Assembly (NCBI RefSeq): GCF_900104775.1
Contig: NZ_FNSA01000003.1
Location: forward strand, 868,001 to 932,000
Direction of reading: 5' to 3'
Length of the DNA stretch: 64,000 nt
Source: Tsukamurella tyrosinosolvens
GTDB lineage: Bacteria > Actinomycetota > Actinomycetes > Mycobacteriales > Mycobacteriaceae
Shown piece after piece: positions 28,494 to 33,443 of the stretch. The position numbers were made by a program, and so were the translations under genes. The notes under the pieces are model-generated. The model ran no database searches, was not told the origin of the DNA, and worked only from the letters and a program-made list of their open reading frames with translations. Position 1 is the stretch's first letter. Every line of letters begins with the position of its first letter.

Positions 28494-29801
28494 TCATCGC
28501 TGGTCGAGCCGGATCCGATCGGCGTCGGCGTCGTAGTCGTAGAGCTCCGCGTACCGGCCCCAATCGATCGCCAGCCGCATCTGGCGCTCGGCGTCCTCCG
28601 GGCCGAAGCCGCGGCGGAGCAGGTCGACGAAGAAGCCGAGCCGGACCGCCCCGTCCTTCGCCGCGCGCAGGGTGCGGAGGACCGTCCGCACGAGCGGTGC
28701 GCGAGCCGCGGCCTGTCGCGCGAAGACCTCCTTCGCCTCGGTGAGCGGCACCGTCACATAGGTGCGGCCCTCGTCGGTGATGCTGATGTCGTTGCCCTCG
28801 ACCACCACGAATCCCAGCATCGCCGCCGCATCCACCAGCGGCATGATGTCGTCGAGCTCGAAGTTCAGGTCCGCCGCGAGGTCCGGGAGGTCGGCGTGGT
28901 CGTCGTGCGCGTGCACGAGTTCGACGAGGCCGGCCAGCCCGCCGACGGTGGCGTCGGGCAGGGGCCGGCTCACGGGCGTCGCGTCGCTCGGGTCCGGGGC
29001 GTGCTCGATCTCCGCGCTGCGCCCCGTCAGGGCCTCGTACAGCTCGTCGACGACGGCCTCGAACTCCGGTGCGGTCCGGTCGCGGGGCCGGGCGAGCGGG
29101 ATGGAGGTCTCGTGCACGATGCGGCCGGGCTTGGAGCCGAGGACCACGACGCGGTCGGCCAGCAGCACCGCCTCCTCGATGTTGTGGGTCACGATGCAGA
29201 CGCTGCGCGTCGGGAAGTCGTCCTGCCCCCACAGCTCGACGATCTCGTTGCGCAGGTTCTCGGCGGTCAGCACGTCCAGCGCGGAGAAGGGCTCGTCCAT
29301 GAGCAGCAGGTCGGGCTCGAGGACGAGGGCGCGCGCGAATCCGACGCGCTGGCGCATCCCGCCGGACAGTTCGCGGGGGTAGGCCGACGCGAAGCCGTCC
29401 AGGCCGATCGTGTCGATCGCCGCCAGCGCGCGGGCCCGCCGGTCGTCGTGCGCGACGTTCCGGGCGATCAGCCCCAACTCCACGTTGTCCTGCACCGTCA
29501 GCCAGGGCATGAGCGCGAAGGACTGGAAGATCATCGCGGTGCCCGGGTTGGGGCCGGACAGGGCGGCCCCGTCGGCCTCGACGGTGCCGGACGTGGCGGG
29601 GATGAGCCCGGCGATGATCCGCAGGAGGGTCGACTTGCCCGAGCCCGAGCGGCCCAGCAGGGCGACGATCTCGCCCGGGCGGATCGTGAGCTCGATGTCG
29701 TCGAGCACGGTGAGGGCCTCGCCGGTGGCGCCCTCGAAGCTCTTGGTGAGGCCGGAGAGGTGGATCAGAGGCCGGTCGCCGGGACGGGTCACGGTGGTCA
29801 T
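28494..29801 (-). CDS. ABC transporter ATP-binding protein with AAA-associated C-terminal domain
   Basis: A 435-residue ATPase of the nitrate/sulfonate/bicarbonate-type ABC family. Walker A GRSGSGKST is at 50-58, the signature LSGGMRQRV at 145-153, and Walker B LLLMDEP ends near 171. After the nucleotide-binding domain (about 1-265) comes an extra domain of about 170 residues (VDAAAMLGFVVVEGNDISITDEGRTYV and onward) matching the AAA-associated C-terminal domain. A strong AGGAGG precedes the ATG. It is the last gene of an M-box-led mgtC operon and has no substrate-binding protein gene beside it. Confidence 0.9.
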   Translation of the reverse strand: MTTVTRPGDRPLIHLSGLTKSFEGATGEALTVLDDIELTIRPGEIVALLGRSGSGKSTLLRIIAGLIPATSGTVEADGAALSGPNPGTAMIFQSFALMPWLTVQDNVELGLIARNVAHDDRRARALAAIDTIGLDGFASAYPRELSGGMRQRVGFARALVLEPDLLLMDEPFSALDVLTAENLRNEIVELWGQDDFPTRSVCIVTHNIEEAVLLADRVVVLGSKPGRIVHETSIPLARPRDRTAPEFEAVVDELYEALTGRSAEIEHAPDPSDATPVSRPLPDATVGGLAGLVELVHAHDDHADLPDLAADLNFELDDIMPLVDAAAMLGFVVVEGNDISITDEGRTYVTVPLTEAKEVFARQAAARAPLVRTVLRTLRAAKDGAVRLGFFVDLLRRGFGPEDAERQMRLAIDWGRYAELYDYDADADRIRLDQR

Positions 29802-29839: not shown

Positions 29840-31606
29840 CTAGAGGGAGTAGCGGCGCTCGGCCAGGCGGTACAGGCGGCGCCAGAGGGCGGCGTTGGTC
29901 CCGACCACGAACAGGCACATGACGACGATGCCCAGTAGCAGGTGTGCCGTGTGCTCGACGCCGGTCGCCGCGGTGGCCCGCGCGATGTAATCGCCGAGGC
30001 CGTACGCGTGGTACTCCCGGCCGTCGTAGGAGACGACCTCGGCGACGATCGAGGCGTTCCACGCGCCGCCGGCGGCGGTGATGCCGCCGGTCACGTAGCC
30101 GGCGAAGACGCCGGGCAGCAGCACGTACCGCCACGTCATCAGCCGCGGCAGCCGCATGTCGTCGGCGGCTTCGAGCAGGTCGCCGGGGATCGCGCTGGCG
30201 GCGGCGATGACGTTGAACAGGATGTACCACTGGGTGCCGAGCGCCATGAGCACGATGCCGCCGACGTTCAGGGGGATGCTCCACGCGACGAAGACGGCCG
30301 TGACCACGGGGAACAGGAAGTTCGCGGGAAAGCTCGCGAAGATCTGGATGAACGGCTGAAGCGCGCGGCTCAGCGCCGGGTTCAGGCCGATGATCACGCC
30401 GATCGGTACCCACACGACGGTCGCGACCAGCATCACCACCGCGACGCGCGACAGGGTCGCCAGGCCGAGCAACAGGACGTGGCCGACCTCGGCGAGGCCG
30501 GCGTCGCGCAGGATCACCTCGACGCACCGGTAGAGGCCGTAGCCGAGGAGCGCGAGCACGACGGCGGCGAACAGCAGGTCGCCGAGGCGGCGCCGGGCCG
30601 GTGCGACGACGGTCGCCGTCCCGGACCGTCCGCCGAGGGACCCGAAGACGCGGTCGCAGACCGCGACGACCGGCGCGAGCGCGCGCCCGACGACCGCGCT
30701 GACGTGCGAGCGGCGCAGCAGGGTGAGCACCGCCGACTTCGGCTCGCGCCCCGTCGCCGAGTCCTCCAGCCGGAAACGCTCGGCCCAGGCGGTGAGGGGG
30801 CTCCAGAACAGGAGGTTGACGGCGACGATCACCACGATCATCGCGAGGACGGCCCAGCCGACGCGGCCGAGGTCACCGTCGGTGGAGGCGGACGCGACGT
30901 ACGCGCCGATGCCCGGGAGCGCGTACTCCTTGCCCGCCACCGACACGGCCTCGGAGGCGGTGAGGAAGAACCAGCCGCCGCCGAAGCTCATCATCGCGTT
31001 CCAGACCAGGGGGATCATGCCGCCGGGCACGTCCAGGCGCCAGAACCGCTGCCACCGGGACAGGCCGAGGTTCTCGGCCGCCTCGCCGAGCTCGCGGGGC
31101 TGGCTGATCAGGCTCTGGTAGAAGGCGAAGGTCATGTTCCACGCCTGCGAGGTGAAGATCGCGAAGATCGCGGCGCACTCGAGGCCCAGGGTGGAGCCCG
31201 GGAACAGCGCGATGAACAGCGTCACCGTGACCGACAGGAAGCCGAGGATCGGCACCGATTGCAGCACGTCGAGGAGGGGCATGAGCACGGCCCGTGCCCG
31301 GCGTGAGCGCGCGGCGAGCGTGGCGTAGACGAAGGTGAAGACGAGCGACGCCGCGAGCGCGAGGAACATCCGCAGCAGCGATCGGGCCGCGTAGTAGGGG
31401 AGCTGCGCGGGGTCGGTGTCGATGCCGGCCTGCGCGTGGGACAGGTCGACGGGGGCGTTCATGCCCTGCCCGACCCGGATCACGAGCCAGATCAGGGCGG
31501 CCGCCCCGAGGACGACGAGGACGTCGGCGGCGATGCCCGCCCCGCGCGTGCGCCCGGCGCGGCCGCGTGCCGAGAGCACGCCGCCCGCAAGGGGAGTGGT
31601 GGTCAC
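29840..31606 (-). CDS. Fused two-domain ABC transporter permease
   Basis: A 588-residue protein in which two binding-protein-dependent permease domains are joined in one chain. The first EAA loop is EAAENLGLSRWQRFWRLDVP and the second EAADDMRLPRLMTWRYVLLP, each facing the partner ATPase. Roughly six helices lie in each half, with a soluble linker near 330-375. GTG 31606 overlaps the mgtC stop by 4 bp (GTGA) and has GAGGAGG upstream. Fusion makes the permease a single-chain pore for a homodimeric ATPase. The substrate is unknown; operon context with MgtC and a Mg2+ riboswitch points to magnesium homeostasis. Confidence 0.88.
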   Translation of the reverse strand: MTTTPLAGGVLSARGRAGRTRGAGIAADVLVVLGAAALIWLVIRVGQGMNAPVDLSHAQAGIDTDPAQLPYYAARSLLRMFLALAASLVFTFVYATLAARSRRARAVLMPLLDVLQSVPILGFLSVTVTLFIALFPGSTLGLECAAIFAIFTSQAWNMTFAFYQSLISQPRELGEAAENLGLSRWQRFWRLDVPGGMIPLVWNAMMSFGGGWFFLTASEAVSVAGKEYALPGIGAYVASASTDGDLGRVGWAVLAMIVVIVAVNLLFWSPLTAWAERFRLEDSATGREPKSAVLTLLRRSHVSAVVGRALAPVVAVCDRVFGSLGGRSGTATVVAPARRRLGDLLFAAVVLALLGYGLYRCVEVILRDAGLAEVGHVLLLGLATLSRVAVVMLVATVVWVPIGVIIGLNPALSRALQPFIQIFASFPANFLFPVVTAVFVAWSIPLNVGGIVLMALGTQWYILFNVIAAASAIPGDLLEAADDMRLPRLMTWRYVLLPGVFAGYVTGGITAAGGAWNASIVAEVVSYDGREYHAYGLGDYIARATAATGVEHTAHLLLGIVVMCLFVVGTNAALWRRLYRLAERRYSL

Positions 31607-32325
31607 AGGTCCGCCTCCTCGGGCTCCGTGAGGACGTTCCAGCGGACGGCGGTGACCGACGGTTCCATGCTCAGTTGGCTGATCGCGGATTCGAGGGCGC
31701 GGTCGTCCCGGCCGTCCGCGGCCAGGGTGGCGCGCACCTCGACGAGACCGTCGTCGACGTTGTTGCTGCTGATCGATTGGAGGTGGAAGACGGTGCGGCT
31801 CAAAGCCTGCACGAGCATGACGCGCACGTGCGCTTCGTTCTCGTCGCGGGTCACGGCGACGAACTCGTAGCGGCTCGGTGCCTCCTTGCCGGTGTCCGGC
31901 GCCTTGTCGACGACGTGGCCGACCGACCGCAGCGCCGTGTTGACGGCGATCACGACGGCGGTGCCGACGGCGGCGGCGAAGTACAGCCCCGATCCGGCGA
32001 GGGCGCCCACCGCGGCGGAGCACCACAGGGTGGCGGCCGTGTTGAGGCCGCGCACCGTGAGGCCGTCGCGGAGGATCACGCCGCCGCCGAGGAAGCCGAT
32101 GCCCGAGACGATCTGCGCCGCGACGCGGGTGGGGTCGCCGCCCTCGAAGCCGAAGGCGGACAACACCACGAACAGCGCGGAGCCGACCGAGACCAGCGCG
32201 TTGGTGCGCAGGCCGGCCATGCGGGCGCGGTACTGCCGCTCGAGGCCGATCAGGGTGCCGAAGCCGACGCCCGCGGCGATCCGCAACAGGATGTCGAGCT
32301 GAGTGATGGTCGAGGTGGCGTGCAT
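31603..32325 (-). CDS. mgtC: MgtC/SapB-family inner-membrane protein
   Basis: A 240-residue MgtC protein. About five N-terminal helices (residues 10-150) include the family signature GLERQYRARMAGLRTNALVS and the SGIGFLGGGVILRDG block. The C-terminal 85 residues form a soluble ACT-like domain. MgtC proteins support growth at low Mg2+ and survival in macrophages, in part by lowering F1Fo-ATPase activity; they are not Mg2+ transporters themselves. GAGGGAGAG precedes the ATG. The gene is led by an M-box and a leader peptide ORF and is translationally coupled to the ABC permease. Confidence 0.93.
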   Translation of the reverse strand: MHATSTITQLDILLRIAAGVGFGTLIGLERQYRARMAGLRTNALVSVGSALFVVLSAFGFEGGDPTRVAAQIVSGIGFLGGGVILRDGLTVRGLNTAATLWCSAAVGALAGSGLYFAAAVGTAVVIAVNTALRSVGHVVDKAPDTGKEAPSRYEFVAVTRDENEAHVRVMLVQALSRTVFHLQSISSNNVDDGLVEVRATLAADGRDDRALESAISQLSMEPSVTAVRWNVLTEPEEADL

Positions 32326-32475
32326 GGTTCTCTCCCTCGTCGGGACACGCGGGATCGCACCACGACGACGGGTCGCGGCGTGCCACTGCGTGTGATGAGC
32401 GCGGTCTGAGGGCAGCGCGCGGCCACCGGCGGGTCGTCGCCGGGGCGGTGTCGTGCTACCCGAAGGGGTTGGGGC
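32326..32475 (-). other. Structured segment between leader ORF and mgtC
   Basis: A gene-free 150-nt leader stretch. It can form a CCGGCG-N6-CGCCGG hairpin (about 32426-32443) and other GC-rich stems. It could act as an attenuator read by the leader ORF, but no T-tract terminator is evident. Confidence 0.35.
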
Positions 32476-32538
32476 TCAGCGGATCTCCGGAGCGATGCGG
32501 GAAACGCCGAGCGGGAGACTATGACTGTCGTCGGGCAT
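32476..32538 (-). CDS. Candidate 20-residue leader peptide between the M-box and mgtC
   Basis: A short ORF, MPDDSHSLPLGVSRIAPEIR, has a near-perfect Shine-Dalgarno (GGAGGTG at 32550-32544, 5 nt before the ATG), better than that of most genes here. It contains prolines at 2, 9 and 17. It ends 150 nt before the mgtC ATG. Enterobacterial mgtA and mgtC leaders also encode short proline-containing peptides whose translation tunes the downstream gene. That parallel is an inference; expression of this ORF is not shown. Confidence 0.55.
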   Translation of the reverse strand: MPDDSHSLPLGVSRIAPEIR

Positions 32539-32604
32539 TGCATCACCTCCGTGTCGGGAAGACCACGCGCCGATGGAGGGAGGGTGAAGACTGAGCGCCC
32601 CTCC

Positions 32605-32763
32605 ACGTCAGACCTTCAGCACTTCGCGGCGTGAACCCGTACGAGCAGTACGGGAGCCAATCGGGGAGCACCCTTAAGCCGGATGCGCCTGTCCTGACCC
32701 GGGGCGTCTCTCGACGTTCGGGGTCGCTGGCCTGTTTCCGCGAAGGAGCCTCAGCGAACGAAT
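32605..32763 (-). ncRNA. M-box (ykoK) magnesium riboswitch
   Basis: Reading the minus strand from 32763, the conserved M-box landmarks occur in order: ATTCGTT-N2-CTGAGGCTCCT; ACCCCGAACGTCGAGAGACGCC followed by GGGTCAGGACAGG; the GCATCC-N2-CTTAAGGGTGC stem-loop; a CCCGTAC/GTACGGG hairpin (32655-32637); and AGTGCTGAAGGTCTGACG at the 3' end. These line up with the Bacillus mgtE M-box. The element lies 280 nt upstream of mgtC. Mg2+ binding would compact the domain and lower expression. Immediately 3', GGAGGGG (32604-32598) can pair with CCCTCC in the tract at 32586-32575, which could otherwise mask the leader ORF ribosome binding site. Confidence 0.85.
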
Positions 32764-32779
32764 GGCGCCTTACCGAACA

Positions 32780-32808
32780 AGCATGACACGCGTCCTGGGG
32801 CGGGGCAA
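32780..32808 (-). promoter_or_regulatory. Promoter of the M-box/mgtC operon
   Basis: On the minus strand TTGCCC (32808-32803) and CATGCT (32785-32780) are spaced by 17 bp. The predicted start near 32773 is about 10 nt before the first conserved M-box bases. It overlaps the promoter of the divergent tetR gene. Confidence 0.5.
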
Positions 32809-32828: not shown

Positions 32829-33443
32829 ATGGAGGTACCGACGACCGGCCGGGCCGGCACGGCAGGGCCCGAGGCGGGGACGGCGCGCGAGCGTGCCAAG
32901 GCGGCCCGCCGCCGCGAACTGCTCGCCGCCGCGGCGGCGCTCATGGCCGAGCGCGGCTTCGCCGGCGTGCGCCTCGAGGACATCGGCGCGGCGGCGGGCG
33001 TCTCCGGCCCCGCCATGTACCGCCATTTCGCGGGCAAGCAGGACGTGCTCGCCGCGCTCCTGGTCGAGATCTCCGAGTACCTGTACGACGGTGGCCGCCG
33101 GGTCGCGGAGGAGCGTGCCGGGGACCCGCGGCAGGCGCTGCACGACCTGGTGGACTTCCACGTGGACTTCGCGGCCTCCGAGCCCGACCTGATCCGCGTG
33201 CAGTACCGCGACATGTGGTCGCTGGCGCCGGAATCGGCGCGTCGCGTGCGACGGCTGCAGCGGCAGTACGTGGAGATCTGGACCGATGCGCTCACCGCCC
33301 TCGGCGGCGACCCCGTGGACAACCGCGCCGTCGTGCACGCCGTCTTCGGGCTGATCAACGCGGCCCCGAGCCTCCCGGCGCTGCCGCAGCCGCGGCTCCG
33401 CGCGCTGCTGCGCGACAAGGCCCTCGCGGCCCTCGGCGTCTGA
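32829..33443 (+). CDS. TetR-family regulator of the leucine catabolic operon (Rv2506-like)
   Basis: A 204-residue TetR regulator. The HTH (VRLEDIGAAAGVSGPAMYRHFAGKQDVL) is near residues 46-73. It lies directly upstream of and parallel to accD1-accA1-fadE19, as Rv2506 lies beside the same operon in M. tuberculosis, so an acyl-CoA or related leucine intermediate is the probable ligand. The ATG at 32829 is preferred; TAGTGT ends 8 nt before it, which suggests a leaderless transcript. An in-frame GTG at 32817 would overlap that hexamer. Confidence 0.85.
   Translation: MEVPTTGRAGTAGPEAGTARERAKAARRRELLAAAAALMAERGFAGVRLEDIGAAAGVSGPAMYRHFAGKQDVLAALLVEISEYLYDGGRRVAEERAGDPRQALHDLVDFHVDFAASEPDLIRVQYRDMWSLAPESARRVRRLQRQYVEIWTDALTALGGDPVDNRAVVHAVFGLINAAPSLPALPQPRLRALLRDKALAALGV

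Follow-up and report, generated by a model that had tools for sequence, protein, structure and literature searches.

In the window, a 64,000-nucleotide stretch of Tsukamurella tyrosinosolvens DNA (contig NZ_FNSA01000003.1, positions 868,001 to 932,000; coordinates below are those of the window), an operon of mgtC and ABC transporter genes is preceded by an M-box (Mg2+) riboswitch and, behind it, by a 20-codon upstream open reading frame (uORF). We moderately favor a reading in which the M-box serves as a translational OFF-switch on the uORF, which in turn gates the mgtC-ABC operon. Judging from sequence evolution, the uORF is probably a cis-acting translated gate, presumably a shield against Rho, rather than the source of a functional peptide. 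The basis for this reading consists of the anatomy of the leader, its conservation, an energy release found at the level of the genus, a rise of C over G near the uORF start, the lack of a terminator by scan and a uORF tail that shows no detectable protein-level selection. What comes as a surprise is that the uORF is so widespread and is conserved at the level of its codons; the M-box/uORF switch itself was recently described.

Leader of the mgtC operon

The leader lies on the minus strand, where a weak promoter-like block is followed in turn by the M-box, a GGAGGGG element within helix P1, a pyrimidine tract, a Shine-Dalgarno (SD) sequence, the uORF, a 150-nt spacer and mgtC. A covariance model search of the window placed Rfam RF00380 at 32594-32769 (minus strand) at 108.1 bits (E 3.9e-23), where the gathering score is 44. 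The match spans model positions 1-169, that is, the full length, and bears out the M-box that the initial annotation had recognized by its landmarks. The gene downstream is the Mg2+-related mgtC, as identified by Pfam, and the M-box of the window is real and ordinary. Covariance alignment and folding put the 5' strand of P1 (GCGCCATTC) at 32760-32768 and its 3' strand (GAGGGGCGC) at 32595-32603. The latter overlaps GGAGGGG (32598-32604), here called ααSD, at the M-box 3' edge, and the covariance alignment locates this element in P1. The αSD pyrimidine tract CACCCTCCCTCC (32575-32586, read from the sequence), the ribosome binding site GGAGGTG, or SD2 (32544-32550), and the uORF, which starts with ATG (MPDDSHSLPLGVSRIAPEIR, 32476-32538), follow on the same strand; the initial annotation had positioned all of these elements correctly.

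The sigma-70-type promoter proposed earlier fared less well. Although a -35-like TTGCCC (32803-32808, minus strand) and a -10-like CATGCT preceded by TGT (32780-32785, minus strand), the latter a weak consensus match, each recur in 12 of the 15 genus leaders on comparison by eye, a strict sigma-70 scan of the mgtC leader returned no promoter. A gene for a TetR-type regulator (32829-33443, plus strand) is oriented away from the M-box promoter and lies about 45 nt from the -10-like block. A TetR-type regulator also adjoins mgtC in all six Tsukamurella loci compared, so a protein may regulate the operon as well.

Between the uORF and mgtC lies a C-rich spacer (32326-32475, minus strand), termed rut-like on the basis of C/G windows, which contains the SD of mgtC, GAGGGAG (32332-32338, minus strand, read from the sequence). 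A terminator scan of the leader found no intrinsic terminator. The spacer had been described as a GC-rich structured segment of 150 nt; it is GC-rich, but its predicted folding is not significant (z of -1.50, with 16 of 200 shuffles folding equally well). The operon itself, on the minus strand, consists of mgtC (31603-32325; Pfam MgtC and MgtC_SapB_C), a fused ABC permease with two BPD_transp_1 stretches (29840-31606), the start of which overlaps the mgtC stop, and an ABC ATPase with an AAA_assoc_C domain, identified by domain search (28494-29801). A function of MgtC as a transporter is considered doubtful (PMC12810186). The same gene order of mgtC, fused ABC permease and AAA_assoc_C ATPase is also seen in Nocardia, Amycolatopsis and Mycolicibacterium, including loci where no M-box was found, and the ABC genes are absent within the 3 kb examined at two of six Tsukamurella mgtC loci (L051 and L052).

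Conservation and selection within Tsukamurella

RF00380 was found in 15 of 16 Tsukamurella genomes at 17 places, 15 of them before mgtC and two representing a second M-box (L032 and L033). The contig of the 16th genome breaks off about 50 nt ahead of mgtC and does not include the leader; the counts therefore refer to 15 genomes, in all of which an M-box and a uORF precede mgtC. The 20-codon ORF with a strong Shine-Dalgarno, as noted in the initial annotation, is present in the window, and comparison of the leader, ORF start and SD across relatives showed that the uORF and SD2 are kept in 15/15 mgtC-type genus leaders. GGAGGGG is identical in 14/15, and the αSD tract is variable but C/U-rich. 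In the genus alignment two 3-nt indels and a single -1/+1 pair, in which the shifts cancel out, leave the uORF frame intact, one further +1 change extends a uORF to 27 residues, and the lengths range from 18 to 27 residues. The window peptide starts MPDDSHS, with P2, D3, D4 and a Ser as residue 7. An SD-led uORF1 start behind the SD-like element is absent from the window and present in three of the 15 leaders (L036, L046 and L047). The second M-box of L032 and L033 is followed by a uORF of the mycobacterial type (MPSGDSPYSRPG, starting MPSGDSPY), so that two uORF types coexist in one genus.

The analyses of selection, synonymous identity, duplex energy and opening energy were carried out with an earlier set of 111 uORFs, the picking of which preferred AGT. 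The codon statistics given below come from a set picked by SD and spacing only; the two sets have the same starts in 15/15 Tsukamurella mgtC loci and in 108/110 overall.

Does the uORF encode a working peptide? A functional small protein, for instance one that modulates the Mg2+ stress machinery (the proposal made for Rv1805A), would explain the conserved N-terminus (pN/pS of 0.48 at codons 2-7 in Tsukamurella), and M. tuberculosis has an M-box-independent homologue, Rv0115A (PMC12810186). The remainder of the uORF points the other way. From codon 8 to the end pN/pS is 1.32 as compared with 0.19 for mgtC codons 21 to the end, although mgtC codons 2-20 also reach 0.83. The peptide varies in length within the genus and is single copy in its own genome at up to 3 mismatches. 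At codons 2-7 the synonymous identity is 96.4%, with a maximum of 92% among 183 mgtC windows of at least 80% residue identity. With six codons only, and with wide pS intervals that overlap those of mgtC, this value suggests, but does not prove, a constraint at the nucleotide level on codons 2-7 in Tsukamurella, and to that extent speaks against a small protein. We regard the small-protein reading as improbable, and a protein-level function of the whole peptide in Tsukamurella appears unlikely from these comparisons. The suggested role for the prolines or the peptide finds weak support: Pro2, the one proline largely kept in the genus, occurs in 13/15 (Thr in L034, Ser in L046), but the tail is without detectable protein-level constraint. 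As far as sequence comparison can tell, the features conserved in the uORF are its ribosome site, a short stretch of specific codons and an open frame.

Predicted opening of SD2 by the ααSD

The window has the order known from the M. tuberculosis pe20 leader, with the ααSD within P1, then the αSD tract and then SD2. The initial annotation had held that GGAGGGG and the SD of the uORF can both pair with the same pyrimidine tract, giving a ready-made switch. The complementarities are real, but on average they are no stronger than with shuffled C-rich linkers (mean z of +0.35 and -0.40 for the two duplexes in Tsukamurella). Since the duplex energies show no excess, we relied on predicted opening energies instead. 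Adding the ααSD lowered the opening energy of SD2 by a mean of 3.0 kcal/mol over the 15 genus loci, as compared with 0.93 kcal/mol with shuffled linkers (12 linker shuffles per locus). The release exceeded 0.5 kcal/mol in 14/15 loci and lay above the locus's own shuffle mean in 13/15. The two loci below their own shuffle mean are L035 and the window, where the release was 1.15 kcal/mol against a shuffled mean of 1.63, and folding leaves the SD2 of the window paired in both enforced states. The genus thus supports the switch, whereas this sequence alone does not: what stands of the ready-made switch is its conservation and the genus-level release, not the window's own fold. Beyond the 15 genus loci, the release was greater than 0.5 kcal/mol in 63/95 loci, with 0/3 in genus g50 of family f19, 0/2 in g26, 0/2 in g9, 0/1 in g14 and 4/11 in g22. 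A mutually exclusive arrangement of ααSD, αSD and SD2, as modeled, is supported by conservation and by the genus-level opening energies.

With P1 closed, and in linker-only folds, SD2 of the window is predicted to pair with a nearer CUUCC (32557-32561, minus strand) and not with the tract named above. A capture of GGCGCC in the P1 5' strand by a conserved GGCGCG in the linker was also considered and rejected, since SD2 remained closed when that strand was added (mean 8.31 versus 8.48 kcal/mol, 15 loci). In some long-linker leaders a short hairpin, for example GACGCCCCCGUGCGUC or GGCAUCCCCGUGUGCC, was seen by eye just before SD2, with what look like compensatory changes; such loci include some in g10, g22, g23, g26, g27 and g30, e.g., L005, L137 and L140.

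uORFs behind other actinobacterial M-boxes

The M-box sample comprised 127 places, of which 116 came from 72 of 301 genomes of the window's family (f1) and 11 from outside the family, the latter drawn from 394 genomes of the class, 26 of them with a match. A uORF was called from an SD and its spacing only, with a length of 8-60 residues and a location within 200 nt of the M-box. By this rule 110/127 M-boxes are followed by a uORF, a pooled count that is not made up of independent cases because the uORFs are related by descent. Four controls gave 6-9/127 (reverse complements 9, two shuffles 9 and 6, the stretch 800 nt further on 9), and their calls contained AGT at codons 4-9 in 0, 0, 0 and 1 cases. 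The calls were distributed as 100/116 in f1, 4/4 in f19, 3/4 in f20 and 3/3 in f22; at least one of the 110 (L129) looks less like a uORF than like the beginning of a disrupted mgtC. The peptides start, among others, with MSPGDSPYP, MPDDSHS, MSDGSH, MDDPPSRY (GTG start), MSPGHSPR and MTSGSSPQ. Pro7 occurs in 52/110 uORFs and in 26/33 of g30, which we take as Mycobacterium, as we take g23 as Nocardia, from PE-like genes and peptides. The start lies at +55 in the window, with a median of +55 in mgtC-type loci and +91 in other M-box loci. The uORF2 peptide was called specific for mycobacteria (PMC12810186); the uORF is not a mycobacterial speciality, and its far wider spread is new here.

A same-strand MgtC homologue was located downstream at 36/127 M-box loci, 30 of them within 900 nt, and a uORF was called in 25 of these 30. 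The other five (three in g19 and two in g10) have an SD-led mgtC start 49-131 nt behind the M-box, so that mgtC itself occupies the place of the uORF. We cite SD-led starts here, as the mgtC distances by tblastn are extrapolated (that of L190, a partial match, is negative). This substitution agrees with the gate reading. The five loci would also fit a reading in which M-box control acts straight on mgtC or on transcription, with an incidental uORF. Against the latter stand the excess of uORF calls over the controls, the presence of a uORF with a protected frame in 15/15 mgtC-type genus leaders and the absence of a terminator by scan, and we consider it highly improbable. From the side of mgtC, 20 loci were scanned of 80 retrieved. 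An M-box was present in the flank examined at nine of them (Tsukamurella 6/6, Nocardia 3/6), and none was found in the flank examined at three Amycolatopsis, three Mycolicibacterium/Mycobacterium, one Segniliparus and one Gordonia locus.

Codons at the start of the uORF

The constraint on the uORF start is most evident in its codons. Of 300 Ser codons at uORF codons 2-10, 69% are AGT; the share is 4% among 268 Ser codons further along these uORFs, 3% among 70 at gene starts and 4% among 2367 within gene bodies. Over uORF codons 2-10 Tyr is TAT in 56/56, and CGA and AGA together account for 72% of 72 Arg codons (gene bodies: 6% of 3001). The wobble bias does not extend evenly to Asp, which is GAT in only 38% of 134 codons (17% in gene bodies). 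AGT is found at codons 4-9 in 96/110 uORFs (89/100 in f1, 4/4 in f19, 3/3 in f20 and 0/3 in f22); the 14 without it include the three from f22, where AGT stands at codon 10 or 15. In 16 of 18 genera, half or more of the uORFs carry AGT at codons 4-9, and the AGT core is shared by at least three families of the class.

A free RNA motif could in principle lie behind this conservation. Within nt 10-27, however, 132 of 137 AGT triplets are in frame and five out of frame. The first AGT stands at codon 4, 5, 6 or 8 in the frame of the start codon, while the distance from SD2 to AGT takes all values modulo 3 (43/43/10). A free motif is less likely for this reason; an RNA motif inherited jointly with the start codon keeps some small probability as the cause.

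The residues are biased as well. Asp, Glu and Pro at residues 2-9 average 3.04 in the 110 uORFs versus 1.30 in 291 genes, and 74/110 uORFs have at least three of them as compared with 35/291 genes. The codons AGU, UAU, CAU and CGA are probably wobble-read. These features invite a reading in which the uORF, connected in series behind the M-box, is a further Mg2+ sensor that works through the ribosome, analogous to MgtL: Asp and Pro residues and wobble codons would cause the ribosome to pause or fall off at low Mg2+, altering downstream RNA folding or the access of Rho. Besides the residue excess, the AGT, TAT and CGA/AGA bias and the frame-locked AGT are in its favor, and there are enterobacterial precedents (PMC8092293, PMC11282234). 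On the other side, the excess of Asp, Glu and Pro is weak or absent in the four genera outside f1 (means of 1.0 to 2.0), with a value of 0 in g14; the share of GAT is low; and the five M-box/mgtC loci described above have no called uORF. In M. tuberculosis a uORF2-lacZ fusion is well expressed, at about 650 Miller units (PMC12810186), which indicates no strong abortion there under the conditions tested. By analogy a sensor is conceivable, and we regard it as doubtful. Its general form, in which actinobacterial M-box leaders would be two-stage Mg2+ sensors, the aptamer opening the uORF and the translating ribosome then testing Mg2+ on a cis codon device of Asp/Pro and frame-locked AGU, UAU, CAU and CGA, is put forward with still more reserve.

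C/G profile and the gate

The leader shows C>G and YC enrichment. In the window C/G reaches 1.94 in the 78-nt stretch starting at 32539, the 99th percentile of the window background being 1.80; measured against the sense-strand background, the uORF stretch has a C/G of 1.83 and lies at the 98th percentile. In 78-nt windows C/G rises from 30 nt before the uORF to the uORF start, from 1.14 to 1.40 in Tsukamurella and from 0.89 to 1.36 in the 95 other uORFs, with steps of 0.77 to 1.37 in g30 and 0.85 to 1.39 in g23. The maximum in Tsukamurella is in the spacer (1.75 at +90), not over the uORF, and uORF windows lie above the 95th percentile of C/G in 21/110 only. From this composition the untranslated uORF would be a plausible Rho loading site, and the translated uORF would be a partial shield.

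How might the translational switch and the uORF gate work together? We infer Mg2+ binding, the direction of the switch, the involvement of Rho and the shielding role of the uORF. When Mg2+ is bound, P1 would close and hold GGAGGGG; the SD2 region would stay paired within the linker and the uORF would not be translated. The C-rich, G-poor RNA from about the uORF start would then be open to Rho, and transcription would stop before mgtC. At low Mg2+, P1 would open, GGAGGGG would take the pyrimidine tract and SD2 would become free. Ribosomes on the uORF would shield the rut-like RNA and let the polymerase pass. Against such a gate, the 150-nt spacer behind the uORF would remain unshielded. Moreover, the main termination site in M. 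tuberculosis lies upstream of uORF2 (PMC12810186), so termination there need not depend on uORF2 translation.

Relation to known leaders

The combination of an M-box and a peptide ORF, which the initial annotation had pointed out, has a precedent. In the M. tuberculosis pe20 leader (PMC12810186, 2026), SD1 acts as the ααSD, a pyrimidine αSD and SD2 follow, and uORF2 (Rv1805A) and Rho-dependent termination complete the system, an architecture supported in M. tuberculosis by reporters, Term-seq and Rho depletion. The switch idea is therefore already known. The words Tsukamurella, Nocardia and AGT are absent from PMC12810186, and a search of the open-access literature, as far as its texts were available, turned up no paper dealing with Tsukamurella or Nocardia M-boxes or with the AGT codons of these uORFs. 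The window resembles pe20 in its M-box, the SD-like element at the aptamer 3' edge, the pyrimidine αSD, the strong SD2, the conserved uORF that comes first in an operon with mgtC and the lack of an intrinsic terminator. It differs in that the first full gene is mgtC, followed by the fused ABC permease and the ATPase, with no PE/PPE gene. The window peptide begins with MPDDS instead of MSPGDSPYP, lacks Pro7 and does not have the Rv1805A-type N-terminus.

The B. subtilis ykoK M-box, the archetype of RF00380, shares the aptamer class and a P1-linked expression platform (as summarized in PMC12810186). It uses an intrinsic terminator, whereas the scan found none in the window leader. The enterobacterial elements MgtL (EPDP), mgtQ (Asp2, Glu5) and MgtM/MgtP are likewise short ORFs that lie in the leaders of Mg2+ genes or in their intergenic regions. 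No RF00380 M-box is known in these enterobacterial systems. An acidic, Pro-rich nascent-chain start of the MgtL type is present in the window and enriched in its family, and no sequence relation is claimed. Acidic residues at the very start of MgtL and mgtQ destabilize ribosomes (PMC8092293, PMC11282234), an effect that has been demonstrated for these enterobacterial ORFs and is hypothetical for the uORF of the window. The only M-box/uORF switch that we found described, that of M. tuberculosis pe20, now extends beyond mycobacteria, and sequence evolution suggests that the uORF acts in cis. Should its codons indeed sense Mg2+, the leader would couple a riboswitch to a ribosome-based sensor in series and unite the Gram-positive M-box mechanism with that of enterobacterial mgtL.
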